Under the pieces are notes generated by a model that was not told the DNA's origin, ran no database searches, and saw nothing but the letters and a program-made list of their open reading frames with translations. DNA of 28,525 nucleotides from Candidatus Desantisbacteria bacterium CG1_02_49_89. GTDB lineage: Bacteria; Desantisbacteria; UBA1551. The position numbers were made by a program, and so were the translations under genes. This document shows, one piece after another, positions 5,990-24,960 of the stretch. Position 1 is the first letter of the stretch, and every line of letters starts with the position of its first letter. The stretch spans positions 1 to 28,525 of the forward strand of contig MNUP01000063.1 of assembly GCA_001871075.1 (NCBI GenBank), given 5' to 3'.

Positions 5990-6013
5990 GTCTTCCCCCT
6001 TAAATATAGTCAC

Positions 6014-6077
6014 GAGTCATGTGTCATGAGTCATGAGTTATAATCCACTAAAGACAAATGACTATTGACTAATGACT
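6014..6077. repeat. Word-repeat spacer between cimA and the glycosidase gene
   Basis: The forward strand has gagtcat, gtgtcatgagtcatgagtta and then the related words aatgactattgactaatgac. The repeat overlaps the end of cimA: the final Ser-His and the TAG stop are read from an AGTCATTAGTCA word. Confidence 0.8.
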
Positions 6078-12372: not shown

Positions 12373-12480
12373 TAGATATAATTATGAGTGCTGAATTATG
12401 AATTATGAATCAACAACAAGGATTTTTCTATTTAAAATAAATTCCTTGACTCATAATTCATAACTCATAATTCATAATTG
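12373..12480. repeat. Inverted-arm spacer (AATTATGA words around an AAGGA core)
   Basis: The left arm is tgaattatgaattatgaatc, the core is caaggatttttctatttaaaataaattccttg, and the right arm is actcataattcataactcat with further aattcataatt. The arms are inverted copies and the core is itself bounded by CAAGGA/TCCTTG, so the block can fold into one long imperfect hairpin. It begins at the TAA stop of the URO-D-family gene and stops before the ribosome binding site of the oxidoreductase gene. The block at 24041-24127 has the same design. Confidence 0.88.
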
Positions 12481-13563
12481 TTATTTCAAGCCGCATAGAA
12501 CTTTGCGGCGCTCAATGTAGTATTTGTAGTTGTCAAACGAAACGTCTTCAGGGATCGCGTGGTCAACCAGGGGTATGAACCCGCCTTCGGCAGTGATCCC
12601 CGCAAGCCTGTTGATCTCCGCGTCGATCTCTTTTCTTCCCTTTGCCAGCGCCCTCTTGTCCACGTTGCCCCACATTATTATGTTCTTCCCGTAGATCTTG
12701 CGCAGTTTTACCGCGTCCATCCCCGCGGCTACTTCGAGCGGGTAAAAACCCGTGACCCCGCCTTCGATCCACAGGGGAATAAGCTCCTCGATGTTCCCGT
12801 CGCAGTCCACCCAGGAATGCCTGACCCCGTGCTCCCTCAGGAGCGCGGTGATCTTCTTGTAATGCGGCAGCATGAACTCCCTGAACATTTTCGGCGATAT
12901 CAGAGGGCCGGTCTTGTAACACATATCCTCCCAGAAACAGGCGTAGTCTATGTCCTTTACTTCGTCAAGCGCCCTGTGCAGGACCTTCATTGCGAAGTCA
13001 AGTATGAACTCGTTCATCTCGTGTATAAGGCCGGGGTCGTCGAAGAACATCACGCTAAGGTTCTCAACGCCCACCCAGTTGCGGATCCAGCCGTAGAAAC
13101 TGCACGCACCTATCGTCAGCGGGTAATCCCTTTTCTTCATAGTCTCTTTCCACTCTTTCCAGTCTGTTTCAGGCGGGTACCTGCACGGAGAACTAACGTT
13201 CATCCTTTTCCTATAATCCTCCCAGTCTTTCCTGGTTTTTATGGGATATTCTATCCACTGGGGCATCCCGAACCCCGAATATTCCTTGAACTGCTTCTTT
13301 ATTGAATTATCGCCGTCCCTGAAAACCCGGTACTTGTCGGTTTCTTCAAGCGTCTCGTATTTAAAACCGGGGATTATACCCAGGTTCACAGGGACCCCGG
13401 CTGTCCGTTCAAAACCGAAATATTCCGAGATATGCACGTCCTGCGGCAGGCCTTCTTTATACCAGCGCTCCAAACCTGTAGGCGAGTACCAGTCCATCCA
13501 GAACGGAACATGGTCCTGCTTCTTGAATTCAACCATTTTCCAATATCTTTCTCTTTCAGTCAT
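12481..13563 (-). CDS. Uroporphyrinogen decarboxylase (URO-D) family protein, probably not haem synthesis
   Basis: About 360 residues with the URO-D/methyltransferase-like TIM-barrel pattern: N-terminal KKQDHVPFWMDW, a helix with MNEFILDF, a central CFWEDMCYKTGPLISPKMF, then HSWVDCDGNIEELIP and a C-terminal MWGNVDKRAL. Members with this layout are common in glycan-degrading candidate phyla, next to Gfo/Idh/MocA genes. They lack evidence for haem synthesis; some relatives are corrinoid methyltransferases. Here the gene precedes two oxidoreductases, so a sugar-catabolic or demethylating role is possible. I chose ATG 13563, which has AAGGGG 7 nt upstream, over the ATG at 13587, which lies in a GCATATGGCATATGGC spacer repeat. 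The stop abuts a repeat spacer. Confidence 0.82.
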   Translation of the reverse strand: MTERERYWKMVEFKKQDHVPFWMDWYSPTGLERWYKEGLPQDVHISEYFGFERTAGVPVNLGIIPGFKYETLEETDKYRVFRDGDNSIKKQFKEYSGFGMPQWIEYPIKTRKDWEDYRKRMNVSSPCRYPPETDWKEWKETMKKRDYPLTIGACSFYGWIRNWVGVENLSVMFFDDPGLIHEMNEFILDFAMKVLHRALDEVKDIDYACFWEDMCYKTGPLISPKMFREFMLPHYKKITALLREHGVRHSWVDCDGNIEELIPLWIEGGVTGFYPLEVAAGMDAVKLRKIYGKNIIMWGNVDKRALAKGRKEIDAEINRLAGITAEGGFIPLVDHAIPEDVSFDNYKYYIERRKVLCGLK

Positions 13564-13577
13564 TTTGCAACCCCTTA

Positions 13578-13597
13578 AATGCCGCATATGGCATATG
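13578..13597. repeat. Short GCATATGGC word repeat
   Basis: The forward strand reads atgccgcatatggcatatgg, tandem copies of a GCATATG word also found at 16969-17056. It fills the gap between the one-TM protein gene and the ribosome binding site of the URO-D-family gene, and adds a spurious in-frame ATG. Confidence 0.6.
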
Positions 13598-13599
13598 GC

Positions 13600-14058
13600 T
13601 TATTTCTGCAAATCCTCTCTCATCGTTAAAATTAATTTATTAAATGTATTCGTCCAGTTTGTAGCCAAATTCTGTATTGAACTATTTTTTTCTTTTTCTG
13701 TTTGGAGGTTCTCTATTTTTATTATTTCTATTGCTAAAGTTTTCCGGGTTTTTTCAACTAAATTAGCATATCCTAATAATGATTTAGTGACTTTTTCCGA
13801 AGCATATAAATGAAGAATATCAATTGCAATTTTCATAGAATCAATTTTTTCATTAATTTCTTCGGATTTTTTAGGATTATCATCATAACTAAACAAGAGA
13901 GTTGTGAAGTCTTCTATTGTTCCAAATGCTTTAATGAATTCTTCATATACTCTTTTTTTATTTTCGTGAATTACCGACCACCTTTGAGTGCAAAAAGTTA
14001 TTAACCCACCTACCAATACGCCTAAAAAACCAAAAAGCACAGTTTGCCAACCTTCCAT
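13600..14058 (-). CDS. Unknown protein with one N-terminal membrane segment
   Basis: 152 residues, not recognised. Residues 4-24 (WQTVLFGFLGVLVGGLITF) form one membrane helix. The remaining 125 residues are charged, predicted largely helical and probably coiled coil, facing one side of the membrane. The ATG at 14058 follows AGGG. It begins 12 nt after the stop of the secreted TPR protein, so the two are probably one operon. It shares that gene's high A+T content, unlike the metabolic genes downstream. The layout resembles short phage- or defence-associated one-TM proteins, but nothing in the sequence fixes a function. Confidence 0.7.
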   Translation of the reverse strand: MEGWQTVLFGFLGVLVGGLITFCTQRWSVIHENKKRVYEEFIKAFGTIEDFTTLLFSYDDNPKKSEEINEKIDSMKIAIDILHLYASEKVTKSLLGYANLVEKTRKTLAIEIIKIENLQTEKEKNSSIQNLATNWTNTFNKLILTMREDLQK

Positions 14059-14070
14059 AAATTACCCTTT

Positions 14071-14718
14071 TCACTTCTCTGTTTCTTCGTAGATTTTGTC
14101 CATAAGTTTTTTGATTAAAGGAGAAGATGGATCTACATTTTTCATAGAATCAATACATTTTAAGGATTCAGTTTTTTTATTTTGTTTCAGATCCAATAAT
14201 CCTGCTTTGTAAAGATCATCACAGGCTACCGTTGGAAGTTTTAAAGTAGCATAAATAACTCCGCGCTTGAAATAAATGACAGGATCTTCGGGTTCCAGTT
14301 CTATTGCTTTGGTGTAGTCATCTATTGCTTTTTGGTATTGGTTTAAAAGAAAATAAGCATTCCCACGGCTGTTGTAGATACCGGCTCTGTAAACGGAGAT
14401 TTCCCTTTCAGCAAAACTCTTGTAATCAGCACCTGCAAGGACGTTGGTGTAGTCATCTATTGCTTTTTGGTATTGGCCTAAATTAAAATAAGCACCCCCA
14501 CGATATTCATAAAGAACACAAGACATATAAGTATCCTCAAGATTTACTTCTATTACTTTAGTGTAGTATTTAATTTTTAAGTTTAAGGTTTCTGATTGTT
14601 CCGCTTTAATAACCCATTTAAAAAATTCATTAACTTGTTGAGTGGTTAAAGTTTCATTTGCGAAACAGTAAATACTTATACAAAGAAAAAATGTAGTAAA
14701 CAAAATCCGTTTGAGCAT
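14071..14718 (-). CDS. Secreted short TPR-repeat protein
   Basis: 215 residues. MLKRILFTTFFLCISIYCFA is a signal peptide with likely cleavage before NETL. Three to four TPR units follow, each containing an Ala-Ile-Asp-Asp-Tyr-Thr segment; two of them share the string YQKAIDDYT. The C-terminal block CDDLYKAGLLDLKQN matches that of the larger TPR protein at 7676-9082. The two also share the mature N-terminal layout (Glu-Thr-Leu, then a Lys-Ala-Glu-x-x-x-Thr segment, then KYYTKVIE). They are paralogues in two different AT-rich islands. The ATG at 14718 has GAGGT upstream. The role is a protein-protein interaction scaffold of unknown partner. Confidence 0.82.
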   Translation of the reverse strand: MLKRILFTTFFLCISIYCFANETLTTQQVNEFFKWVIKAEQSETLNLKIKYYTKVIEVNLEDTYMSCVLYEYRGGAYFNLGQYQKAIDDYTNVLAGADYKSFAEREISVYRAGIYNSRGNAYFLLNQYQKAIDDYTKAIELEPEDPVIYFKRGVIYATLKLPTVACDDLYKAGLLDLKQNKKTESLKCIDSMKNVDPSSPLIKKLMDKIYEETEK

Positions 14719-14840
14719 TTTAACCTCATTCTCATCGGAAAAATATTTATCAAAGGGAATATTAAGCCCTTGGTTCCCGCGAATAAATGCATTTTAAAAC
14801 GTTTACGTGATTCGTTTTTACTGTTTTCTTATAGCCCATT
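14719..14840. other. AT-rich gap, no gene seen
   Basis: A 122-bp stretch between hicB and the TPR gene. It is one of the few spacers here that lacks the word-repeat structure. It may hold a promoter for the TPR gene, but no convincing -35/-10 pair stands out. Confidence 0.4.
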
Positions 14841-15050
14841 CTATGCGAATACCAAACGCCCTTTTGGTTTAGGAATTGCCCTTTTTAATTCTTTGGCGGT
14901 TTCTATCCATTCCTGAATTACCGTTTCTGCGTTATCCAGAGCTTCCTGATAGGTTTTCCCATCAGCCATACAGCCGGGTAATTCAGGCACATCCGCGATA
15001 AACGCTTCGTCTTCATAGCTCCAATAGATAATAACTTCATACCTAAACAT
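14841..15050 (-). CDS. hicB: HicB-type antitoxin (short form)
   Basis: 69 residues. The pattern Tyr-x-Val-x-Ile-x-Trp-x-x-Glu-Asp-x-x-Phe, DVPELPGCMADG, then an Ala-Leu-x-Asn-Ala helix and a terminal IPKPKGR is the HicB partial RNase-H-like fold. It neutralises the HicA mRNA interferase by covering its active site. The short form has no C-terminal DNA-binding domain, so autoregulation may be weak or provided elsewhere. The ATG at 15050 follows GGAGGTAAAA and overlaps the end of hicA by 8 nt. The toxin-first order is the usual one for hicAB. Confidence 0.88.
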   Translation of the reverse strand: MFRYEVIIYWSYEDEAFIADVPELPGCMADGKTYQEALDNAETVIQEWIETAKELKRAIPKPKGRLVFA

Positions 15051-15300
15051 TTTTACCTCCGAGTTTATGCTTTAGAATTATATTTCGAACCTGCTTAACT
15101 TGATACGGCTTTGCTTTTGCGCCTTTAGGCTGTAAGTTCAAAATCTCCGCAATATCATCTCTCGTAAAAATATGATGACTGCCACGAATACGCTCGTCAA
15201 AATTCATTCTATCCAGTAATAAACACATTTCCATAAAAGAAATATTCGAATCAGAATTACCCTGCAAAATGCGAATCAAAAATTTTTTATATTGAATCAT
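15043..15300 (-). CDS. hicA: HicA-type toxin (mRNA interferase)
   Basis: 85 residues with the double-stranded-RNA-binding-like HicA fold. RGSHHIFTRDD (about 39-49) carries the catalytic His in the Gly-Ser-His-His motif, and the C-terminal helix QVKQVRNIILKHK matches the Val-Arg-x-Ile-Leu-Lys end of the family. It is slightly longer at its N-terminus than many HicA proteins. It cleaves mRNA and tmRNA when free of HicB. ATG 15300 follows AAAGGAAAGGCC. The pair lies at the edge of the second AT-rich island, as expected for a mobile addiction module. Confidence 0.85.
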   Translation of the reverse strand: MIQYKKFLIRILQGNSDSNISFMEMCLLLDRMNFDERIRGSHHIFTRDDIAEILNLQPKGAKAKPYQVKQVRNIILKHKLGGKNV

Positions 15301-15332
15301 GGCCTTTCCTTTATGGAATGTTAATAAACAAA

Positions 15333-15421
15333 ATATGAATCAGGGCTGAAGCCCTGAGTTACATAAAAATATTGCTTTTGATTCATAATGCCCCTCGGGG
15401 CATAACTCATAATTCATAATT
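15333..15421. repeat. Inverted-arm spacer downstream of folD
   Basis: The forward strand has aatatgaatc, then the hairpin CAGGGCT-GA-AGCCCTG, then tgcttttgattcataatgcc with the hairpin GCCCC-TC-GGGGC, then ataactcataattcataatt. The phrase tgcttttgattcataa is shared with the spacer at 24041-24127. The block begins at the TAA stop of folD. Confidence 0.82.
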
Positions 15422-16283
15422 AAATACCAAGCTGCATTTTAGTGACTTCAACGGTGTTCCTGAGCAGAATGGCGGTTGTGACCGGGCCCACACCGCCTTT
15501 CACAGGCGTGATCCAGGACGCTTTCGCGGACGCAGGCTCAAAATCCACATCCCCGAGCGCGGTCCCGTCCGGCAGCCTCTTTATGCCCACCAGCACAATT
15601 ATAGCGCCTTCTTTCACCCATTCGGGTTTGATAAGACCAGGTTTTCCCACTGCTGAGATTATTATGTCAGCCCGCCTTATATGGCTTTCAAGGTCTTTTG
15701 TGGCAATGTGGCATACTGTTACGGTCGGAGAATCTGTGAGCCACTGCAGCAGCAATATTGCGACCGGCTTCCCCACTATTTCGCTGTGCCCGACCACGAC
15801 CGCTTCTCTGCCTTTAAGGTTTTCGCCGGTTGATCTCAGGAGCTCCATGACAGAAAGTGCTGTGCAGGGTCCGATTTTAGGATTTCCATACAGGAGCATG
15901 CCGAGATTTGAAGGATTCATTCCCTCAACGTCTTTCGCAGGCGAAAGCGCTTTCTGGGCAGAGCGCGGGTTTATTCCCTGCGGTAAAGGCATCTGCAGGA
16001 TGATCCCGTTGACGGATCTATCGCTGTTCAGCTTCTCTATGTATCGGACCAGCGCGGTTTCAGACGTATCAGCGGGAAGCGTGTGAAGGTTATAAACCAG
16101 GCCGATTGCTTCACAGTTCTTCTTCTGCATCCCGACATACATCTTTGACTCCGGGTTGTCTCCGACCTGGACCGCTGCCAGGCTGGGTATAATCCCCTTT
16201 ACCTTTAATGCCTCCATGTCCCTTGCAACCTCATCCTTGATTCTCTTCGCAACAACATTTCCATCCATTAATTGTGCAGCCAT
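15420..16283 (-). CDS. folD: Methylenetetrahydrofolate dehydrogenase (FolD family, cyclohydrolase residue replaced)
   Basis: 287 residues, normal FolD length. It should oxidise 5,10-methylene-THF to methenyl-THF with NAD(P). Seen: SKMYVGMQKKNC (46-57), LQMPLP (96-101), KDVEG (117-121), PCTA (139-142), GHSEIVGKP (165-173) and GGVGPVT. Three positions are unusual. In bifunctional enzymes the residue four after the active-site Tyr is the catalytic Lys (Lys54 in E. coli, Lys56 in human); here Tyr49 is followed by Gln53 (codon CAG). The Asp of the KDVDG motif is Glu120. GRS is GHS, and the following Glu resembles NAD-specific dehydrogenases. In the human enzyme the Lys to Gln change is known to remove cyclohydrolase but not dehydrogenase activity. 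Because fchA lies directly upstream, I infer a mainly monofunctional dehydrogenase. Confidence 0.88.
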   Translation of the reverse strand: MAAQLMDGNVVAKRIKDEVARDMEALKVKGIIPSLAAVQVGDNPESKMYVGMQKKNCEAIGLVYNLHTLPADTSETALVRYIEKLNSDRSVNGIILQMPLPQGINPRSAQKALSPAKDVEGMNPSNLGMLLYGNPKIGPCTALSVMELLRSTGENLKGREAVVVGHSEIVGKPVAILLLQWLTDSPTVTVCHIATKDLESHIRRADIIISAVGKPGLIKPEWVKEGAIIVLVGIKRLPDGTALGDVDFEPASAKASWITPVKGGVGPVTTAILLRNTVEVTKMQLGI

Positions 16284-16323
16284 TTTCTACCTCCCCCTTA
16301 ATACAATTATGAATGATGCTTCT

Positions 16324-16956
16324 TCAATATTTGCCCCGATTGATCTTCTTAACGACTTCATACTTTATCGCTCCGCCCTTCACCATCAGCGGCTTCAGTG
16401 CAATCCTGGTCTTTTCCGTAAATTCTTTATCGGTTATGCTTGAAAGGTTAATTTCAACGTTAAGCAACGCGCTCTCCATTGCCGCGCAAGAAAGAACCGC
16501 GGCCATTCCCGTATCCGTTATGAGACCTGGATTACCCGCTTCCAGAAGTTTTTCGGCAAGCTCAAGCAGCTGATAGGAAAGTTTTAAAATTTGCTCCGGA
16601 ACCTGCATTGCTTCTTTTAACACCTCCTGGATCACGATAGCTCTTTTTGCCTTTTGCTCCTCGGTATCTTTGGGAAGCTTATAAGCGATGCTCACCTTCC
16701 CGTATACCCTCACATCTTCGTCAATCAACCTGCAGAGTTCTTCCCTTACGCTGCCTGCAGAAGAAAGTATCCCCATACATTCATTTTGTTGCAAATCCGG
16801 AAATTTTGGGTTGCCGATCGTAAAATTGCAAACCATGGAAATGAGCCCGCCCGCGAGCGCGCCTGTGAGAGCGGCAACGCTTCCGCCGCCGGGAGCCGGC
16901 AGTTTCGCCGAAAGATCTTCCAGGTACTTTTTAATTGACTGTTCGATGTATAGCAT
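16324..16956 (-). CDS. fchA: Cyclodeaminase/methenyl-THF cyclohydrolase
   Basis: About 210 residues, the stand-alone C-terminal domain of the FTCD family. It converts 5-formimino-THF or 5,10-methenyl-THF, and in formate-metabolising bacteria supplies 10-formyl-THF/methenyl-THF cyclohydrolase activity. Seen: LPAPGGGSVAALTGALAGGL (19-38), LIDEDVRVYGKV (77-88) with the likely catalytic Asp81, AYKLPKDT (91-98), and the helical EAGNPGLITDTGMAAVL segment. I chose ATG 16956 with GAGG upstream over the in-frame ATG at 16989, which lies in GCATATGGC repeat. It follows fhs after an inverted-arm spacer and precedes folD by 40 bp. The fhs-fchA-folD order is the classic methyl-branch C1 cluster. Confidence 0.88.
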   Translation of the reverse strand: MLYIEQSIKKYLEDLSAKLPAPGGGSVAALTGALAGGLISMVCNFTIGNPKFPDLQQNECMGILSSAGSVREELCRLIDEDVRVYGKVSIAYKLPKDTEEQKAKRAIVIQEVLKEAMQVPEQILKLSYQLLELAEKLLEAGNPGLITDTGMAAVLSCAAMESALLNVEINLSSITDKEFTEKTRIALKPLMVKGGAIKYEVVKKINRGKY

Positions 16957-16968
16957 TTTACCTCGCTT

Positions 16969-17056
16969 TTTGCATATGGCAAATGGCATATAGCTTATGG
17001 CAACTGCTTAAGGAATTTATTTAAAGCCATGTGCGATGTGCCACATGCTATGTGCG
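16969..17056. repeat. Inverted-arm spacer between fhs and fchA (GCATATGGC / CATGTGCGATG words)
   Basis: The left arm is gcatatggcaaatggcatat and the core is gcttaaggaatttatttaaagcc. The right arm is catgtgcgatgtgccacatg with a further tatgtgcgatac. The AAGGAATTTATTT core is the same as in the AATTATGA-type spacers at 12373 and 24041, although the arms use different words. It lies just after the fhs stop. Confidence 0.85.
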
Positions 17057-17060
17057 ATAC

Positions 17061-18755
17061 TTAAAAAAGACCAACAACCCTACCCTCGCTGTCAATGTCC
17101 ACTTTCACGCCGGCGGGAACCGAAGGAAGCCCCGGCATAGTGCGCATATCTCCGCATAGCGGATAGAGGAACCCCGCCCCCACGGACGCCCTTATATCCC
17201 TTATCGGAAGAGTGTAGCCGCCTGGCGCTCCCTTCCATGACGGCTCGTGTGAAATGGAAAGGTGCGTCTTTGCCATGCATACGGGCAGCCTGTCGTAGCC
17301 GAATTTCGTGTAGAGTTTTATTTTTTCCTCTGCGGCGGGCGAATACGAAACGTCCTTTGCGCCGTATATTTTTACCGCTATCGCCCCGATCTTTTCTTTT
17401 ATCGGAACGTCCAGCGGGTAGAGGAATTTGAAATCCGTTTTTTTCTCGCAGGCCCTGACGACCGCCTGCGCAAGCTCCCTGCCGCCTTCCCCGCCCTTCG
17501 CCCAGACCTCGCTGAGGACAGCGTCTTCAGCGCCTGCCTCAACCGCGCGCTTGCGTATAAGGCTGATTTCGTTGTCCGTATCCGTTGTAAATCTGTTGAC
17601 GGCCACCACCACCGGGACCCCGAACAGCTTTGCGTTCTCAATATGCTTTCTGAGATTGCACATGCCCTCTTCAAGCGCCTGCAGGTTTTCCCTTACCAGC
17701 CCTTCGTCCAGGGGTTTTCCGGCTACCATCGTAAATTTACCGCTATGCATCTTCAGCGCGCGAACTGTGCAAACTATGACAACACAGTTGGGGACCAGCC
17801 CGCTGCACCTGCACTTTATGTTCATGAATTTTTCCATTCCCATGTCCGCGCCGAACCCGCTTTCGGTTACCACGTAATCCGCAAGTTTCAACGCAATGTT
17901 ATCCGCAATTATGGATGAATTGCCGTGCGCTATATTCGCGAAAGGTCCCGCGTGAACAAAGCAGGCGGTATTTTCCGTTGTCTGCAATAAATTGGGTTTT
18001 ATTGCATCTTTCATAAGCACTGCCATTGCGCCCGCAACCTGCAGGTCCTCGGCTGTCACCGGTCTTCCATCATAAGTTGTGCCAACGCAGATCATTCCCA
18101 GGCGTTTGCGGAGGTCAGGCAAACCCGAGGTTAATGCAAGAATAGCCATTAGTTCGGAGGCTACCGAGATATCAAAACCAGTCTGTCTGGGAATTCCGTC
18201 ATCCTTAGTTCCAAGTCCGATTACAATATTCCTCAAAGCCCTGTCACTCACATCCACAACCCTTCTCCAGGTGATGCTGGCCGGGTCTATGTTCAGTTTG
18301 TTGCCTCTCAGCAGGGCGTTATCCAGAAAGGCCGCGCACAGGTTATGCGCTATGCTGACGGCATGCACGTCCCCTGTCAGGTGCAGGTTAAAATCTTCCA
18401 TCGGAAGAACCTGGGAATAACCGCCGCCCGCGGCGCCGCCCTTTATCCCGAATACAGGCCCCAGTGAAGGCTGCCTTATGACCGTAACTACCTTTTTTTC
18501 GATTTTATTCAACCCTAACGATAGGCCTATAGTTGTGACGGTTTTTCCTTCTCCCAGCGGAGTCGGCGTAATCGCCGTAACATCAATGTACTTACCCTGC
18601 GGCTTACCATCAAGCCTTTTCAGAACATCAAGCGTTATCTTTGCCTTGTATTTACCGTACATCTCAAGCTCGTCTTCCAGGATACCGATACCTTTTGCTA
18701 CGTCCAGCACGGGTTTCATTTTAGCCTGTTGCGCAATTTCCAAATCACTCAGCAT
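17061..18755 (-). CDS. fhs: Formate--tetrahydrofolate ligase
   Basis: 564 residues, the usual length. It makes 10-formyl-THF from formate, THF and ATP. Seen: the P-loop TPLGEGKT (64-71), then FGIKGGAAGGGYSQVLPMED and NLHLTGDVHAVS, DRALRNIVIGLG, ESGFGADMGMEKF, and the C-terminal segment APGGYTLPIRDI. ATG 18755 follows GGAGGATTTAT, and the folB stop lies 14 nt upstream, so folB and fhs are one transcript. With fchA and folD it interconverts formate and methylene-THF for purine, Met and Ser synthesis, or in a reductive C1 route. No CODH/ACS or metF is in view, so direction is open. No odd residues were noticed. Confidence 0.96.
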   Translation of the reverse strand: MLSDLEIAQQAKMKPVLDVAKGIGILEDELEMYGKYKAKITLDVLKRLDGKPQGKYIDVTAITPTPLGEGKTVTTIGLSLGLNKIEKKVVTVIRQPSLGPVFGIKGGAAGGGYSQVLPMEDFNLHLTGDVHAVSIAHNLCAAFLDNALLRGNKLNIDPASITWRRVVDVSDRALRNIVIGLGTKDDGIPRQTGFDISVASELMAILALTSGLPDLRKRLGMICVGTTYDGRPVTAEDLQVAGAMAVLMKDAIKPNLLQTTENTACFVHAGPFANIAHGNSSIIADNIALKLADYVVTESGFGADMGMEKFMNIKCRCSGLVPNCVVIVCTVRALKMHSGKFTMVAGKPLDEGLVRENLQALEEGMCNLRKHIENAKLFGVPVVVAVNRFTTDTDNEISLIRKRAVEAGAEDAVLSEVWAKGGEGGRELAQAVVRACEKKTDFKFLYPLDVPIKEKIGAIAVKIYGAKDVSYSPAAEEKIKLYTKFGYDRLPVCMAKTHLSISHEPSWKGAPGGYTLPIRDIRASVGAGFLYPLCGDMRTMPGLPSVPAGVKVDIDSEGRVVGLF

Positions 18756-18769
18756 ATAAATCCTCCTTA

Positions 18770-19168
18770 TTATCGTATCTTGGAGCCCCAGGCCTTATCG
18801 GGCTTCTGCATCCTGTTTATCTCGATCTCCGCGTATTCAATAAGGCCGCCCACGGGAGGCCGGGGTTTTCTTACCTTCACGGTTATATCGTGTATTTCCT
18901 TAAATTTATCAAGCAGCGCGCCGGCAGTGTCTTCGGCAAGTGCTTCAAGCAGGCGGTATTTTTTACCCCCCTGAATTTTTTTAACAAGCACGCAGGCCTG
19001 CTTGTAATCAAGCGTCTTTGAAAGCTCATCGCTTCTGCCGGCCTTCTCCAAATCTACGATCATTTCGATGTCTATATAATACCTCTGGCCTTTTCGCCTT
19101 TCTATTTCCGAAGTGCCGTGGTATCCGTAGAAACTCATGCCCTTAAGGATTATTTTATCCTTAGTCAT
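18770..19168 (-). CDS. folB: Dihydroneopterin aldolase
   Basis: About 132 residues. It converts 7,8-dihydroneopterin to 6-hydroxymethyl-dihydropterin and glycolaldehyde in folate synthesis. Visible: IILKGMSFYGYHGTSEIERR near the N-terminus (family motif Phe-x-Gly-His-Gly), LSKTLDYKQAC, a LLEALAEDTAG helix with the pterin-binding Glu, and VRKPRPPVGG (the catalytic-region Lys-Pro segment). The fold is the tunnelling (T-fold) type, working as an octamer. ATG 19168 with GGAG upstream is preferred over the TTG at 19174. It lies between a rubrerythrin-like gene (34 nt upstream) and fhs, linking folate supply to folate-dependent C1 chemistry. Confidence 0.9.
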   Translation of the reverse strand: MTKDKIILKGMSFYGYHGTSEIERRKGQRYYIDIEMIVDLEKAGRSDELSKTLDYKQACVLVKKIQGGKKYRLLEALAEDTAGALLDKFKEIHDITVKVRKPRPPVGGLIEYAEIEINRMQKPDKAWGSKIR

Positions 19169-19202
19169 TATCAAGCTCCGTATTCATTGATTACCCGGAA
19201 AT

Positions 19203-19661
19203 TTAGTTTTCCGGCGAAAATACCTGCTTGTATCTCTCTTCAAGCCTGGCCTTGTGTTTAAGCTCTTCTTCGCCAAGTTTTTTCAGCAGGCCCGCAACAT
19301 CCTCATTTTCAATAATAAATTCAGCCCATGAAACATAGAAAACGCGCGTGTCCTCCTCGTCTTTTATGGCGGCAAGCATTACGTCTTTTGCGTCCGCGTA
19401 TTTGTTGATAACGGGTTTCTCGAGGAAATCGGATATGCGCTTGTCCTCAAGGCTTTTTATGCCAAGCCCTATATCCGCCTTTCTCCTCTGAAAATCCTGC
19501 AGCCTCTCTTTATGTTTCAGCTCCTCGCCTGACAGCTCTTTGAGCAGGTTGCGCGTGGCAGGATCCGTGATCCTTCTGGACAGGTCCTGGTAAAGCGACG
19601 AAACCTCTTCTTCCTTCCCTATCGCCCTCTGTATGATCTCGTCCATCGCGTAGCTTTTCAT
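19203..19661 (-). CDS. Rubrerythrin/ferritin-like di-iron protein
   Basis: 152 residues predicted as a four-helix bundle. Two Glu-Glu-Leu-Lys-His motifs (about residues 46-50 and 130-134) and upstream glutamates (Glu17-Glu19 in GKEEEVSSLY and IKDEEDTRVFYV) give two symmetrical ExxH-type metal sites. This is the duplicated half-ferritin layout of the COG1633 type. There is no C-terminal rubredoxin domain (no Cys-x-x-Cys), so it is not a classical rubrerythrin. The likely role is peroxide reduction or iron handling in an anaerobe; the electron donor is unknown. ATG 19661 follows AAGGGGCCTGC. It is followed closely by folB, perhaps as one transcript. Confidence 0.82.
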   Translation of the reverse strand: MKSYAMDEIIQRAIGKEEEVSSLYQDLSRRITDPATRNLLKELSGEELKHKERLQDFQRRKADIGLGIKSLEDKRISDFLEKPVINKYADAKDVMLAAIKDEEDTRVFYVSWAEFIIENEDVAGLLKKLGEEELKHKARLEERYKQVFSPEN

Positions 19662-19687
19662 GCAGGCCCCTTTAAATTAATTTCCTG

Positions 19688-19836
19688 TTTGATCAACGGT
19701 TTAACGGATTAATCAGCAGATTAACGGTTTCTCGGCTTTAATACAGTTTATAGAGTTTACAAGTTTACATAGTTTACAAGGTAAAAAATTCGTGGAAATT
19801 AGTGTAAATTCGTGGTTAAAAAATTTCGTGGTAATC
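19688..19836. repeat. Composite word-repeat spacer
   Basis: The forward strand holds, in order, aacggtttaacggattaatc with agcagattaacgg, then agtttatagagtttacaagt and tttacatagtttaca, then attcgtggaaattagtgtaa followed by attcgtgg and atttcgtgg. The agtttata/agtttaca words also occur at 2713-2755. It fills the gap between the TPR/zincin-like gene (stop at 19840) and the ribosome binding site of the rubrerythrin-like gene. Confidence 0.82.
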
Positions 19837-19839
19837 TTT

Positions 19840-21744
19840 TCACTGTTTCAATTTGGCTTCAAGGTTTTTAAACAGCGCGGAAAGCAGGACTGCCAGCTGC
19901 TCGTTATTGACCTTGCAGTTCACGAATGTAAACTCACATTCAAAGTTCTTGTATGTCCCCATCATATTGAGTGTGTATGTCCTCTGATTCTGGGTAGGCG
20001 CGATTATTACTTCTTTGATAACGGTTTTTCCCGCGGGAGGGGCATCCAGCTTTATATCCTGCAGGACCTCCATCGCGACTCCGGGCGTGCCCTTGATTCT
20101 CTCCCATTTGCTTTTTATGGATTTTTCCTCAGCGGCAAGGAAAGAGGCGGCATCTTTATTCTCGCGGAACATAAGCAGGGCCGCGGAAATAAAAGCGGTA
20201 TTGCCTTTTGCGAATGTAAGAGAATACCCCTCGTTAAAACCCTTCAGCGTTTCTTCTATTTCTTTCGGGGTAAGGCCGGTTGAAAGCCCCGCCCTGAGAA
20301 GCATTTCGTTGATCTCTCCTCCCTGCTTCTGCCATTTTTCCTTTTCGGGCGCTATGACCCTCTCAAGAACGGACAGCAGGGAAAAATAGTCTTCTTTTGC
20401 AAGCAATTCCTTTTCGTAATAAAGCTGGGGCTGCATAACGGCGGACAGTTTTTTCGGAGGCGAATTAAACAACCGGGTGATACCCGGATTTCCTTCTTTT
20501 TCATGGACGAATTTAATGAATTCCTCTCCCCTCACATATATCTGCTTGAACCTGGTGCTTACGACCTGGCGGGCGCCCTCGTCAAAAACGGAAGCCTCAC
20601 CAAGGTCACCGGAGGTGAACATCATTCCGAACCTGACGTCTTCCTCCTTCAATCCCATTTTTTCAGCCACCTTGCGCGCCACAAAAACCGCGTGCCCCTC
20701 AACTATGCTTTCAAGTATTCCCAGTTCGTCCTGGCTTTTCGGTTTTATTATCCTTGCCGAGATGCCGTAATTCTGGTCATCAAGAGCATGGACCATATCG
20801 TGCGCGACCAGAAGGACCATGATGTTCCTGATCTTATCTTTTGAAGGTTTTACAAGCACTACATTCCTCTGAAAAGTATCGGGGACCATATACAGGTTGC
20901 CGTCCGCGAACTCATAAAGCTCGGGTATTATCTCGGAATAAAACTCTGAGAACAGGCGCGAATTGAGCTCGATCTGTTTCCTGTCCGCGCCCGGGCTGAC
21001 GCTGACCGACTGCGCAACGAGCCTTTTTCTTTCTATCTCACCCAGCTCATCGGGAGTGATGATCCTGAGATCAACTTCTTTCATGAACTTTAAACCCGTT
21101 ATTTCTTCTATCAGGGGCCTGGCAAGGCGCATCGCCTCTTCCATTACCGCCGGCGTAACGTCAAATTTCAGGTCTTTTGCCGCAAGTTCAATGTATTTAC
21201 GGAAAGCTTCTCCCGACTCTTCATACTTCTGCATCTTGCGCAGTACCGAGGCTTTATTCGCCCAGGCGCCCGGATATTTCGGGTCCAGCCTTATCGCCTC
21301 GTCATAACTCCGCAGGGCGTCCTCAAGCATGCCCTTCCCGTATTGCGCGTTGCCCTTATAAACCCACGCTTTGACTTTTTTCGGTTTCAGTATCAGCGCT
21401 CTGTCTAATGCCTCGATCGCCCTGTCCGGATCACCCATTGAATCCAGGGCTAAACCCAGGTTCATCCATGCTTCCGCGATCCTTGGATCCTTCTGGATGG
21501 CCGTCTGGTACAGGTTCACGGCTTCCCTGTATCTTTTGTCTTTCAGCAGCTTGTTGCCTTTTCTTACAAAGGACCCCGCGCCCGTTAACATAAAATATAC
21601 TGACAGGGACACCAGCAGTCCGGCAAAACATACTGCCGCAGCGATCATGAAGATTTTTTTCTTGCCTGCGCTCATGCCCTGTTCAGGATCCTGCTGCTGC
21701 CCGCCTTCACCGCTTCCGGTTTCTTCTTCTCCGTTCATTTCCAT
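19840..21744 (-). CDS. Membrane-anchored TPR protein with degenerate zinc-peptidase-like domain
   Basis: About 634 residues. After an acidic N-terminus, one membrane helix (about 30-54) is followed by three to four TPR units (about 60-190), then a long helical domain outside the membrane. That domain holds VAHDMVHALDDQNYG (about 313-327), which aligns with the HELxHALxDQ motif of gluzincin-type metallopeptidases, and LESIVEGHA (344-352) that would give the third zinc ligand. The catalytic Glu is Asp here (codon GAT), so it may bind zinc but be a weak or inactive protease. I chose the ATG at 21744, inside the end of the alcohol dehydrogenase gene, because AAGGTG lies just upstream. An ATG at 21765 is the alternative. 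The overlap suggests translational coupling with the dehydrogenase. Confidence 0.75.
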   Translation of the reverse strand: MEMNGEEETGSGEGGQQQDPEQGMSAGKKKIFMIAAAVCFAGLLVSLSVYFMLTGAGSFVRKGNKLLKDKRYREAVNLYQTAIQKDPRIAEAWMNLGLALDSMGDPDRAIEALDRALILKPKKVKAWVYKGNAQYGKGMLEDALRSYDEAIRLDPKYPGAWANKASVLRKMQKYEESGEAFRKYIELAAKDLKFDVTPAVMEEAMRLARPLIEEITGLKFMKEVDLRIITPDELGEIERKRLVAQSVSVSPGADRKQIELNSRLFSEFYSEIIPELYEFADGNLYMVPDTFQRNVVLVKPSKDKIRNIMVLLVAHDMVHALDDQNYGISARIIKPKSQDELGILESIVEGHAVFVARKVAEKMGLKEEDVRFGMMFTSGDLGEASVFDEGARQVVSTRFKQIYVRGEEFIKFVHEKEGNPGITRLFNSPPKKLSAVMQPQLYYEKELLAKEDYFSLLSVLERVIAPEKEKWQKQGGEINEMLLRAGLSTGLTPKEIEETLKGFNEGYSLTFAKGNTAFISAALLMFRENKDAASFLAAEEKSIKSKWERIKGTPGVAMEVLQDIKLDAPPAGKTVIKEVIIAPTQNQRTYTLNMMGTYKNFECEFTFVNCKVNNEQLAVLLSALFKNLEAKLKQ

Positions 21745-22799
21745 TCTACTATCACCTTCCCGCATTCTTTCGCTGCCGCTGTCTCAAAAGCCTCTTTGGC
21801 TTTTTCGATCGGAAACCTGTGCGTAACCATTTTTTCCAGGTTTGTTTTATGCTTCAGCATAAAACCCGCAAGCTTGTCATACATGCCCCTGGGCATTATA
21901 AAAGAACCCCTTATGCTGGTGTCGCGCCCTATAAACCAGTTCGGTATCGGCGCGCCGCCCGCCACGGTAACCGCCCTTCCGTCAAAAGTCAGGAGCTGCA
22001 GCATCCATTTCATAGCGTCCTCGGAACCGCTGGTTTCGTATCCGGCGCTGAAAGATCCGGGGAACTTTTCCCTGATATCGCCCCATATCTTTTTCGGGTT
22101 CTTGTCGGCTTTTACCGCGTCTATGTCCACAACCATATCAGCTCCGAACTTCCGCGCCAGGCCCAGCCTTATCTCGCGCCTTCCGAACGCCGCGACCTTC
22201 GCGCCCATAGCCTTTGCCATCACAACCCCGCACAAACCCACGGGCCCCAGCCCGAATATAGCTATGTCATCAAGGCCGCTCAGTCCCAGTTTATTCAGCG
22301 CCGCGAAACTTGTCTGCGCGCCGCAGGCTATGAAAGCCCCGTCCACAAAGCTCAGGCCTTCGGAAAGGACCATGCAGTTCCTTTCCGGAGTAACCTTGAG
22401 ATCCGCGAATGAACCCTGGCAGCCTATCTGTCCCATGCCTTTTGTTTTAGAGCATCGCATAAAATAACCTTTAACGCACTGCTCGCACTTGCCGCAGCTT
22501 TCATAATGGTATATGCTGACGCGGTCGCCCGGCTTCACGGACGTCACGCCTTCCCCGGTCTCTTCCACTACGCCTGAACCTTCGTGGCCGGGTATGGGCG
22601 GGTATGGTTTTGCGTCTTTGAATTTTGCGTCCATCTCCTTCTGCTTTTCCGGCGGAACTTTATAAACGTACTGCTTAAGGTCGCTGCCGCACACGCCGGA
22701 AACCTTGATCCTTACCAGGACCTCTCCGGGACCCGGTTTCGGGTCAGGGAATTCCCTTACTTCTGATCTTGAATCGCCCAGCAATACCAGAGCCTTCAT
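21735..22799 (-). CDS. Zinc-dependent MDR-family alcohol/polyol dehydrogenase
   Basis: About 354 residues. The catalytic zinc site is Cys37 (GVCGSD) with His72 and Glu73 (PGHEGSG). The structural zinc site is Cys102, Cys105, Cys108 and Cys116 (CGKCEQC and MRC). The NAD(P)-binding fold carries IFGLGPVGLCG. The family oxidises alcohols, polyols and sugars such as sorbitol or threonine. Neighbouring sugar genes favour a polyol or sugar substrate, but the substrate is not certain. I use ATG 22799 (GAGGAG just upstream); a GTG lies two codons earlier. The stop overlaps the start of the TPR/zincin-like gene. An inverted-arm GATTACAGTGATT spacer precedes it. Confidence 0.88.
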   Translation of the reverse strand: MKALVLLGDSRSEVREFPDPKPGPGEVLVRIKVSGVCGSDLKQYVYKVPPEKQKEMDAKFKDAKPYPPIPGHEGSGVVEETGEGVTSVKPGDRVSIYHYESCGKCEQCVKGYFMRCSKTKGMGQIGCQGSFADLKVTPERNCMVLSEGLSFVDGAFIACGAQTSFAALNKLGLSGLDDIAIFGLGPVGLCGVVMAKAMGAKVAAFGRREIRLGLARKFGADMVVDIDAVKADKNPKKIWGDIREKFPGSFSAGYETSGSEDAMKWMLQLLTFDGRAVTVAGGAPIPNWFIGRDTSIRGSFIMPRGMYDKLAGFMLKHKTNLEKMVTHRFPIEKAKEAFETAAAKECGKVIVEWK

Positions 22800-22805
22800 T
22801 TTCAC

Positions 22806-22893
22806 TCCTCTAATGTGATTACAGTGATTAGTAATGAGATTACAGTGATTATTTTAATATCACCGTAATCATAAGTTAAAAATCACCGTAATC
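22806..22893. repeat. Inverted-arm spacer (GATTACAGTGATT words)
   Basis: The left arm is gtgattacagtgattagtaa then gagattacagtgatt, the core is attttaatatc, and the right arm is caccgtaatcataag with aatcaccgtaatcattcc. The arms are inverted copies. It begins about 5 bp after the stop of the galactose-binding-like gene. The same words occur at 24747-24781. Confidence 0.85.
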
Positions 22894-22897
22894 ATTC

Positions 22898-23467
22898 CTA
22901 TTGAGAAAGCATTTCGCATTCCACGCTCGTCCCCCAGGGCGGGGAACCGAACTCGCCCATTTCAAGCGCCTTAACCCAGCTTTTATCCTCTACGCCGTCC
23001 TGCCAGCCCTTTGTGGCCTTGCTGGATGCTTTCCATGTGGAATTGGAAACAAGCGAAACCTTCTTGCCGTCAGCCGTCACAAGGCCTCCCGCCACAATGA
23101 AACCGGCTGGTCCGTCCTGATTCGTAGCCAGGATCGCTATTACGTTCTTCCCTGTTTTAAGGTTCTTTGTTATGTCATAGACCGTTGCTGCCTGCCAGTT
23201 ATCCCCTTCCCCTATCGATTTCCCGTTCACAAAGAGCTGGTAAACATTGTCAACCGCAACTTCTATCTTCGCTGATTTGGGAGCTGCTTCAAGGCTGAAA
23301 ATCTTTACAAAATACCTTGGCTCTGCCGGCGCTTCCGCTATCGGGTCCATATCCTTTTCAGGATACCATATCCACTGCGCAGTCCCTGCGCCTTCCGCGC
23401 ATATGCCCGTCTGAACCGCTGATACCAGCGCCATTGCCGCAACCAAAATTACCGCCATTCTTTTCAT
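22898..23467 (-). CDS. Secreted galactose-binding-like (rhamnosidase N-domain-type) protein
   Basis: About 189 residues. MKRMAVILVAAMALVSAVQT with a likely cut after CAEG is a signal peptide, so the protein is exported. The rest, IWYPEKDMD, RYFVKIFSL, then VDNVYQLFVNGKSIGEG and ATVYDITKNLKTGKNVIAI, is the beta-sandwich pattern found at the N-terminus of bacterial alpha-L-rhamnosidases and beta-galactosidases. It stands alone here with no catalytic module, so it is likely a carbohydrate-binding or surface protein. ATG 23467 follows GGGGGTGGG; a TTG at 23485 is less likely. A nearby secreted beta-sandwich protein (24128-24712) suggests a small group of exported glycan-binding proteins. Confidence 0.78.
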   Translation of the reverse strand: MKRMAVILVAAMALVSAVQTGICAEGAGTAQWIWYPEKDMDPIAEAPAEPRYFVKIFSLEAAPKSAKIEVAVDNVYQLFVNGKSIGEGDNWQAATVYDITKNLKTGKNVIAILATNQDGPAGFIVAGGLVTADGKKVSLVSNSTWKASSKATKGWQDGVEDKSWVKALEMGEFGSPPWGTSVECEMLSQ

Positions 23468-23487
23468 AACCCACCCCCATTTCAATT

Positions 23488-23583
23488 TGTTGCATTGTAA
23501 AATTCAAAATGTAAAATGTAAAAGTCAAAATTATGGAATAGTCTGTAAAACTTTTACAATTTGCAATTTGAATTTTGACTTTC
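23488..23583. repeat. Inverted-arm spacer (AAAATTCAAAATGTAAAA words)
   Basis: The left arm is tgtaaaattcaaaatgtaaa then atgtaaaagtcaaaatt, the centre is atggaatagtctg, and the right arm is taaaacttttacaatttgca then atttgaattttgactttc. The outer AAGTCAAAATT/AATTTTGACTT pair is inverted. The gcaattt word links it to the in-gene repeat at 870-896. Confidence 0.82.
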
Positions 23584-23593
23584 AGTTTAACAA

Positions 23594-24025
23594 CTATGCT
23601 TTGACCAGCTTTTCCTTCATTGTTTTAAGGTAGCCGACCGAATCTTTTATCGCCTCAACAGGCAGCCTTACGCCCTTCTTTGTAGGTCCTGAATAATCTT
23701 CGGTATCAACATACTCCCTGATGTCAAGCCCCTGTTCTTCCTTGTAAGTGGTAATATTCACGGCTATGAATTTCCCGTCCTGCACCTGAACCCTGCCGAC
23801 TTCCTTGTCCTCCATCTTACCGGTTTGCTTCAGCAACCCGCTCAGGAGAACCACGAGCTCGTCAATGCCGTCCGTGCTGAGGACCACGCCGCTTTTTGTC
23901 GGCCCGGAATACGCCTCCGACTCCACGAATTTCCTTATGCTGCCGAACCTCTTTCCCTTAAATTCCTCCACGTAAAAAACGCACTGCGATGAATCGTTGA
24001 GCTCTACCTTGCCGACGATGTCCAT
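23594..24025 (-). CDS. Tandem PC4-like (transcriptional coactivator p15) single-stranded DNA-binding protein
   Basis: 143 residues made of two similar halves. Half one has SIRKFVESEAYSGPTKSGVV and half two DIREYVDTEDYSGPTKKGVR, each followed by an amphipathic helix. This is the bacterial PC4-like layout: Leu/Ser-x-Ile-Arg-x-Tyr/Phe, then a Gly-Pro-Thr-Lys-x-Gly-Val turn, then strand and helix. Bacterial members are usually a single domain that dimerises on ssDNA or ssRNA. Two copies in one chain would form an intrachain dimer. A regulatory or nucleic-acid chaperone role is likely. ATG 24025 follows AGGGGGAAAA. Neighbours (secreted proteins) give no clue to a target. Confidence 0.82.
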   Translation of the reverse strand: MDIVGKVELNDSSQCVFYVEEFKGKRFGSIRKFVESEAYSGPTKSGVVLSTDGIDELVVLLSGLLKQTGKMEDKEVGRVQVQDGKFIAVNITTYKEEQGLDIREYVDTEDYSGPTKKGVRLPVEAIKDSVGYLKTMKEKLVKA

Positions 24026-24040
24026 TTTTCCCCCTAAATC

Positions 24041-24127
24041 AATTAGTTATGAGTTATGAATGAAGGAATTTAATTTGAATAAAATTCCTTGCTTTTGATT
24101 CATAATTCATAAATCATAATTCATAAT
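24041..24127. repeat. Inverted-arm spacer (AATTATGA words around an AAGGAATTT core)
   Basis: The left arm is agttatgagttatgaatg, the core is aaggaatttaatttgaataaaattcctt, and the right arm is gattcataattcataaatca then taattcataatt. It has the same design and core as 12373-12480. It begins at the TAA of the secreted protein gene and stops just before the ribosome binding site of the PC4-like gene. Confidence 0.88.
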
Positions 24128-24712
24128 TTATTTTACTTTAACTACTGCGGCGCTTGAGATCGCGAAGTCCATCCCGCCAGGGATCTCAAGGCGGATATCC
24201 GCGCCGTTGCAGTTGTTCTCAAAACGGGCGTCCTCGATATGGAAGGTCATCGTTTTCCATTTGCCCGTGTCTTCAAGCACTATTTTGTCCTCCGCGGGCT
24301 TCCATGTCCCCATCGGATAACCTTCAACCAAGCTGAATTCCTGGTCGGAAGAATCGTAAACGAGCCCTATCTCAGCCTCACCTTCATCCAGGTATTCGAT
24401 TATAATGTCCACCTTGGGGGTCTTGCTGTTTTTGAACGCCTTGTTTACAAGATTAAAATACATGTATCTTGCTGCATCCTGGGAAGCCGGGTTCTCTCCT
24501 GCCACCCAGCATTCCTTGCCGGCTTTGGTCCCGGGACTATGCTTTCCTTCGCCTGTCTCATACACAAACGCCAATCCTTTTTCCACTGGTTTCTTGCCTA
24601 AAACCGTCCATGCAGCGTTCGCTGCATCCTTCACGTATGAAGGCGCTCCGCTCTTATCCTGCGCACGCGCGCCTGCCGCTGCGGCAAGAACCGCGGCCAG
24701 CACTAAACACAC
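24128..24712 (-). CDS. Secreted beta-sandwich (carbohydrate-binding-like) protein
   Basis: About 194 residues, not matched to a named family. A signal peptide (CLVLAAVLAAAAGARAQ) is followed by a beta-rich domain with YMYFNLVN, VDIIIEYLDEGEAEIGLVYD, a Trp-Lys-Thr-Met-Thr-Phe-His strand and NNCNGADIRLE. This resembles the non-catalytic sandwich modules found in exported glycan-acting proteins. Start choice is odd: no ATG is in frame. GTG 24712 gives a signal peptide without a basic n-region and a poor leader. Reading from ATA at 24724, four nt after AAAGGAGG, gives Lys-Arg-Ile-Val before the hydrophobic core, as a normal signal peptide needs. An upstream in-frame TAA limits other choices. Confidence 0.72.
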   Translation of the reverse strand: MCLVLAAVLAAAAGARAQDKSGAPSYVKDAANAAWTVLGKKPVEKGLAFVYETGEGKHSPGTKAGKECWVAGENPASQDAARYMYFNLVNKAFKNSKTPKVDIIIEYLDEGEAEIGLVYDSSDQEFSLVEGYPMGTWKPAEDKIVLEDTGKWKTMTFHIEDARFENNCNGADIRLEIPGGMDFAISSAAVVKVK

Positions 24713-24781: not shown

Positions 24782-24789
24782 AAACCAAG

Positions 24790-24960
24790 TGTCAAGGGTC
24801 AAGTATCAAAAGTCAAGTTAAAACTATGATCTCTGTGCCGTAGCCCGCCACGATTATTGGCGGGCGAAGGTCCCTGCGTTATAGCTCCGGAATCATCGGA
24901 GCTGCAGGGAACTCCGTGTCTCCGTGGTTATTCTTTTAAACTTTTGACTTTTGACTTGCC
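24790..24960. repeat. Composite inverted spacer with nested hairpins downstream of radC
   Basis: Outer arms gtcaagggtcaagtatcaaa with agtcaag (from 24791) and cttttgacttttgacttg (to 24958) are inverted. Inside lie the ctctgtgcc / ctccgtgtctccgtgg words and two strong hairpins: GCCCGCC (24843-24849) with GGCGGGC (24859-24865), and CCCTGC (24872-24877) with GCAGGG (24904-24909). The second encloses AGCTCCG/CGGAGCT. The block begins 2 bp after the radC stop. Confidence 0.85.

Follow-up and report, generated by a model that had tools for sequence, protein, structure and literature searches.

Inverted arms of tandem words around a shared core in the intergenic gaps of a Candidatus Desantisbacteria genome

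The contig MNUP01000063.1 of Candidatus Desantisbacteria bacterium CG1_02_49_89 (assembly GCA_001871075.1) carries, at 12373, 16969 and 24041, spacers built to one plan: an arm of short tandem words, a core, and a second arm in which the words are inverted. How do such spacers arise? The original prediction held that a core kept between changing arm words hints at spacers being actively built or rewritten, and not at simple slippage. We analyzed positions 1 to 28,525 of this contig (28,525 nt, referred to as the window), one contig of a 2.48-Mb genome in 150 contigs (93.5% complete), together with 1.09 Mb of the same genome sampled as stretches. These stretches were partly selected around matches, so that densities derived from them are inflated, and pattern counts over the whole 2.48 Mb are free of this inflation. 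The elements of the 12373 type are probably, though by no means certainly, dispersed non-autonomous imperfect-palindrome repeats of ~107 bp, located in gaps between co-directional genes and behaving like miniature inverted-repeat transposable elements (MITEs) or repetitive extragenic palindromic (REP) sequences.

Extent of the design and its core

At all three sites inverted arms of tandem words were found on either side of a AAGGAATTTTATTT- or AAGGAATTT-type core, and the arms at 12373 (12380-12413 and 12446-12479) are 85% complementary. In the sampled 1.09 Mb, 327 period-7 arrays with a score of at least 40 were counted, compared to 0 in dinucleotide-shuffled sequence, and 77% of them lay within the 14% of the sequence called intergenic. 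Arrays of periods 8-10 numbered 261 versus 3 in shuffled sequence, and over periods 7-10 the intergenic share was 77-87%. Inverted repeats with a score of at least 12 were present in 148 of ~549 intergenic regions versus 5 after shuffling, and AATTATGAATTATGA occurs 92 times in the whole genome versus 0 times for the reversed control. As these counts exceed the shuffles and the three sites were confirmed, the design is real and genome-wide; a chance origin of the pattern is ruled out by the shuffle controls. The density of period-7 arrays was ~300 per Mb here and ~33 per Mb in twenty stretches of 2-20 kb from other genomes.

The half-core was present in 53 of the 75 intergenic regions with AATTATGA words (6.2 in shuffled sequence) and in 13 of 39 regions with GTGTCAAC words but no AATTATGA (1.0 shuffled). 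It thus accompanies GTGTCAAC octad arms, and it was also found with GATCCTGG arms. The GCATATGG family, which includes the element at 16969, has copies with TTAAG(G) at the core position, and AAGGAATTTAT is retained in the copy on L106. In regions with AGTTTACAG, GATTACGGTGATT, ACGTCGT or CACGAATT arms the core was no more frequent than by chance, and an association with all word families was therefore rejected. The predicted genome-wide enrichment of the core was borne out, and its constancy between different arm words extends to at least four arm families without being universal. The core is itself palindromic, forming the hairpin CAACARCAAGGAATTT / AAATTCCTTGCTGTTG, which corrects the earlier description.

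Anatomy and arms of the AATTATGA family

Searching the 1.09 Mb directly with the element at 12373 revealed 44 loci of its family. The 30 intact copies align to a single polar consensus of ~107 bp. Four heptads form its A arm and four more its B arm, and between them lie, in this order, TCAACARCAAGGA, a loop rich in A and T, and AAATTCC, the last in some copies with TTGCTGTTGA. The second heptad of the A arm is usually a variant (TCATCAT or TCAGCAT, read outward), and the B arm has no such variant.

The number of units per arm is nearly fixed. Four units were present in 75 of the 91 AATTATGA runs with at least three units (13 had three and 3 had five; longest run, 5-6) and in 40 of the 49 corresponding GTGTCAAC runs (7 with three, 2 with five). 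Two-unit runs were frequent as well (35 for AATTATGA, 22 for GTGTCAAC), many of them probably pieces of arms interrupted by variant units. Median array lengths for periods 7, 8, 9 and 10 were 31, 32, 36 and 29 nt. The detection threshold excludes short arrays; even so, a long tail of unit numbers was absent, and open-ended slippage does not predict such lengths. That simple slippage is not the source of the arms was thus correctly anticipated. Short tandemly repeated repetitive sequences and heptameric simple sequence repeats share with these elements the enrichment of direct heptad arrays in intergenic DNA; the variable copy number expected of such slippage arrays was not seen, four units being dominant.

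Comparison of the two arms gave different results across families and within the AATTATGA family. Across families, the left and right arms of the same element were more similar than permuted pairs (18.45 versus 16.1, p ~0.0005). In the 30 intact AATTATGA copies, the similarity between a copy's own A and B arms was 21.0, below that of permuted pairs (22.8, sd 0.38) and below the similarities of A arms (25.9) and of B arms (24.2) across copies. Mirrored heptads were identical in 28 of 99 cases, with 41 expected. The covariation of left and right arms that the original prediction proposed as a check therefore exists across families and is rejected within this one. The deficit of matching heptads is probably due to two subfamilies offset by one unit, so that relatedness rather than selection may lie behind it, and we do not infer that perfect palindromes are selected against. 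Since a copy's two arms resemble each other less than permuted pairs do and the consensus is polar, the AATTATGA arms are passed on as part of the copy, and the pair is not remade jointly at its locus.

Relative to the genes, the 30 copies are oriented at random (16/14). The flanks of a copy match each other no better than permuted flanks (2.03 versus 2.07, p 0.61), so the target site duplication of a classical MITE is absent, as expected for Y1-type elements moving as single-stranded DNA. Homology between the copies, a constant polarity and a near-fixed unit number are established; copies lie in either orientation without target duplication, and their cores are places where REP palindromes are found inserted. 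The near-fixed unit number, the random orientation, the lack of target duplication and the polar arms fit dispersal of ready-made imperfect palindromes rather than local rewriting or open-ended slippage.

REP-like palindromes adjoin one half of the core in 25 of 110 cases versus 6.5% at random intergenic positions, and in L048, L047 and L112 the insert is flanked by both surviving core halves. Five hybrids join different words at the common core (L122:8356, L096:4381, L100:1784, L058:13509 and L116:2957), and an AGATTGT/GTGTCAAC hybrid is present at three loci. Joining at the core and insertion of REP palindromes into it together explain the mosaic elements. A further insert, GGAATTCGAAAACATTCTGTAAAA..CGAGAATGTTGCCCGAAGGGCAAAGTTATGA, was seen at five or more loci, on either strand, within or next to heptad arms (L104:1060, L108:2381, L052:9356, L056:3430 and L057:14740).

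The genome contains ten Y1_Tnp genes, among them genes like those of REP-associated tyrosine transposases (RAYTs). Two of the ten, ~2 kb apart on contig C23 (L135, L136), are flanked by GTAACTCAGGGCTTTAGCCCTGA-type REPs, and for this reason RAYT-REP activity plausibly accounts for the inserts nested in cores. The REPs on C23 alternate in tandem (TCAGGGC..GCCCTGA and CAAACCT..AGGTTTG with GAGTTAC), and a RAYT-like gene on contig C111 (L137) is flanked by a different family of tandem palindromes (GGAAGCCTCAACTTGTTGAGG / CCCCAACAAGTTGGGG). The search for a mover covered Y1 and reverse-transcriptase genes; a reverse-transcriptase mover was discarded, the single RVT_1 match being partial and at a contig end.

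In the mechanism that we propose, a copy, built of four tandem words, one half-core, a palindromic loop, the opposing half-core' and four words in inverted order, would spread as a whole unit, perhaps as a single-stranded hairpin by means of a Y1-type transposase, or through replication and recombination. Arm families would then have diverged, or been swapped by recombination at the common core to give the hybrids. If transcribed, the copies would form strong intercistronic hairpins. Any cellular role is most likely incidental, the elements being selfish or neutral DNA.

Three observations weigh against dispersal of mobile repeats. AATTATGA arms were found beside none of the ten Y1_Tnp genes within ~350 bases on each side, the nearest AATTATGA array being ~2 kb from the Y1_Tnp gene on C100, so that a Y1-type mover is no more than a candidate. 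Word arrays are under-represented where neighbouring genes point in opposite directions (8 of 23, versus 322 of 526 for co-directional gaps), which is not required of a purely selfish element. No empty site was seen, the sole other genome of the phylum available for comparison (G001) belonging to another family of the same order.

Gene context and alternative explanations

The depletion of arrays outside co-directional gaps would also suit paired protein-binding sites, in which fixed arrays of three or four words are read by a multimeric nucleoid protein or an intercistronic RNA binder and the inverted pair unites two arrays. The near-fixed unit number and arms of ~30 nt at any unit length fit this idea, and paired sites of similar layout in Geobacter metallireducens were proposed to be IHF/HU-type sites of global regulators (PMC2700814). 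We nevertheless regard it as unlikely: the 283 distinct canonical units among the arrays would require many binders, the orientation is random, and dispersal accounts better for the homology of whole copies, loop included.

The elements occupy the gap from stop to start codon, usually at 0-30 nt from both genes. Adjacent genes are co-directional in 776 of 797 pairs (sample L044-L123 and window), all genes lie on a single strand in 43 of 54 stretches of at least 10 kb, and 96% of the genes per contig share one strand; in the window all 26 of 26 called genes are on the minus strand. G001 is similarly biased (94%, versus 75% in 20 other genomes). Such long directons, and gaps filled by the elements, would accommodate intercistronic RNA hairpins under selection for mRNA punctuation, stability or attenuation, as would the strong folding of both strands of the three elements (z-scores of -3.0 to -8.0 for the six strands). 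We consider this slightly less probable again. Inspection of the sequence, with no terminator scan run, showed no T-run after the arms, so the elements are not ordinary intrinsic terminators; mirrored positions lack the covariation that selection on a stem would require; and in element 2 the better-folding strand is the one opposite the genes. There was no Rfam match in the window, which excludes a known RNA family there, and no tRNA was found in it.

On a par with RNA hairpins, and thus doubtful, is a dedicated and widespread machinery by which arms held at ~30 nt would be made or selected from short words (4x7, 4x8, 4x9, 3x10 or 3x8) and set as inverted pairs, with word families crossing phyla, as in the recurrence of the CTCYGTG arm described below, and the core as the signature of one mobile lineage of this class.

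Least probable of all, if by a small step, is building in place as originally suggested, with slippage yielding the words and one arm copied onto the other, by template switching or by gene conversion, around a constrained core. Words do match between arms across families, and inverted matches link 23% of neighbouring arrays versus 6% when permuted, direct matches showing no excess, but the arm similarities within the AATTATGA family, the missing slippage-type tail of unit numbers and the same asymmetric variants in copies at unrelated loci largely refute it for that family.

Features of the window and relatives elsewhere

The elements of the window are listed in Table 1, together with a degenerate fourth copy that the original prediction had missed. 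The inverted-arm spacers without the core described at 22806, 23488 and 24790 were found as well.

Table 1. Positions of the inverted-arm elements in the window (HMM, hidden Markov model of the core)
Feature	Position	Strand	Description
Element 1 A arm	12380..12409	+	AATTATGA-family heptads; long side
Element 1 core	12410..12449	+	TCAACAACAAGGATTTTTCTATTTAAAATAAATTCCTTGA; HMM match 12411-12452, - strand, E 1.6e-5
Element 1 B arm	12450..12479	+	inverted heptads, short side, without GTTG spacer
Degenerate fourth copy	15345..15421	+	REP palindrome (CAGGGCTGAAGCCCTG), core remnant ATTGCTTTTGA, then heptad arm with inserted GCCCCTCGGGGC
Element 2 left arm	16972..17009	+	GCATATGG-type words
Element 2 core	17010..17025	+	AAGGAATTTATTTAAA; TTAAGGAATTTAT retained in copy L106:8213
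Element 2 right arm	17026..17058	+	inverted GCACATGG-type words
Core-less inverted-arm element	22811..22895	+	GATTACAGTGATTA words
Core-less inverted-arm element	23499..23576	+	AAAATGTA/TTTGCAA words; inverted repeat I2, 89%
Element 3 left arm	24044..24062	+	two heptads only (shortened), short side
Element 3 core	24063..24099	+	AAGGAATTTAATTTGAATAAAATTCCTT with GCTTTTGA spacer; HMM 33.6 bits, E 3.1e-8; inverted repeat I15
Element 3 right arm	24100..24128	+	four heptads
Inverted arms, CAAGTGTC / ACTTTTG	24786..24957	+	>100 nt apart; CTCTGTG array and another palindrome nested between

Element 2 was not listed by the core HMM; a direct search yielded four further copies of its family, at least one of them (on L106) with the core. 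An open reading frame called from 16989 begins within its left arm; its real start codon probably lies near 16956, and the first 11 residues are probably not translated. For the element at 22811..22895, 14 of 18 matches in the sample cover at least 70% of the query (the element itself is included and both strands may count), and that at 23499..23576 has one copy only in the sample. At 6008-6077, AGTCATG and ACTAATG arrays lie at either side of the gap between two genes, likely another inverted-arm spacer, and 2797-2820 holds the three-unit array CTCTGTGTCTCCGTGCCTCTGTGG.

Outside this genome, no other species was found to carry the exact core as a repeat. The 20-mer CAACARCAAGGAATTTTATT gave five matches in the GTDB genome collection, which may lack records of the present genome; all are apparently coding and two of them in the same gene context in two Nostocales, and the exact core was rejected as a cross-species mobile sequence. 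G001, the only other genome of the phylum compared, had one period-7 array in 126 kb sampled, and the exact AATTATGAATTATGA and GTGTCAACGTGTCAACGT patterns are absent from its whole genome. Triple AATTATGA units were present in 6 of 290 genomes, including the present one; the seven such loci inspected in other genomes were direct arrays in varied contexts without the present core. A two-unit CTCYGTG arm pattern was found in 28 of the 290 sampled genomes, with almost no matches for the reversed pattern. Most of the CTCYGTG loci inspected reach three units, a GTGGT or GTGGC ending is common to them, and several places are -/+ pairs ~100-290 bp apart. Their word, usual number of units and GTGGT ending are those of the array at 2797-2820 in the window.

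Inverted pairs of ~30-base arms of tandem words were previously known from Geobacter metallireducens and Xanthomonas (PMC2700814, PMC4692102), so the design, for which the original prediction knew no name, does have precedents. The Geobacter sites of classes 1-3 occur in tens of copies and carry, on the two strands and at variable distance, runs of 3-5 words each 7-9 nt long; a class 2 run has three TCTCCGTS units in tandem and is paired with another on the opposite strand (PMC2700814). The present elements likewise set runs of 3-5 words, each a 7-9-mer, against each other on the two strands across a spacer of variable length, and class 2 resembles the array near 2800 of the window in its word and its three units, whereas a core common to different arm families is not reported in the part of that text consulted. 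The GGGAATC heptamers of Xanthomonas are intergenic, mostly of four units, and form 70-75 inverted pairs per genome; in these respects they are alike, but they consist of a single word, reach 26 units and were studied as G-quadruplexes (PMC4692102).

The organelle palindromes of Volvox carteri are similar in being tens of bases long, filling spacers in both orientations, and having a conserved loop and nested insertions; they differ in that their arms are not described as tandem words and that they reside in organelle genomes (PMC2670323). REP/REPIN sequences with RAYTs are short, extragenic, high-copy intergenic palindromes, and this genome has both RAYT-like genes and REPs (PMC3733652, PMC3116915). 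Unlike them, the present elements carry neither a GTAG nor a CGTC tag in their 30-copy consensus and were not seen flanking a RAYT gene at the ten Y1_Tnp loci, and the REPs nested in cores are separate from them. In the P6b region of the Nostoc trnL intron, a stem of heptanucleotide repeats had its word class replaced with its setting retained, a comparable swap at one RNA locus rather than in a dispersed family (PMC4476775). In anatomy the elements are thus closest to Geobacter-type paired word sites, and in behaviour to Volvox or REP palindromes.

Intergenic arrays of tandem words have been reported piecemeal, from Calothrix, Nostoc, Xanthomonas, Geobacter and Beggiatoaceae, and their origin is not agreed. 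The present genome is very dense in them and joins three regularities, namely a near-fixed unit number, a core kept across arm words, and REPs nested in that core. If movement of whole elements were demonstrated, an unexplained class of repeats would become a mobile-element question, and the mover could be sought.

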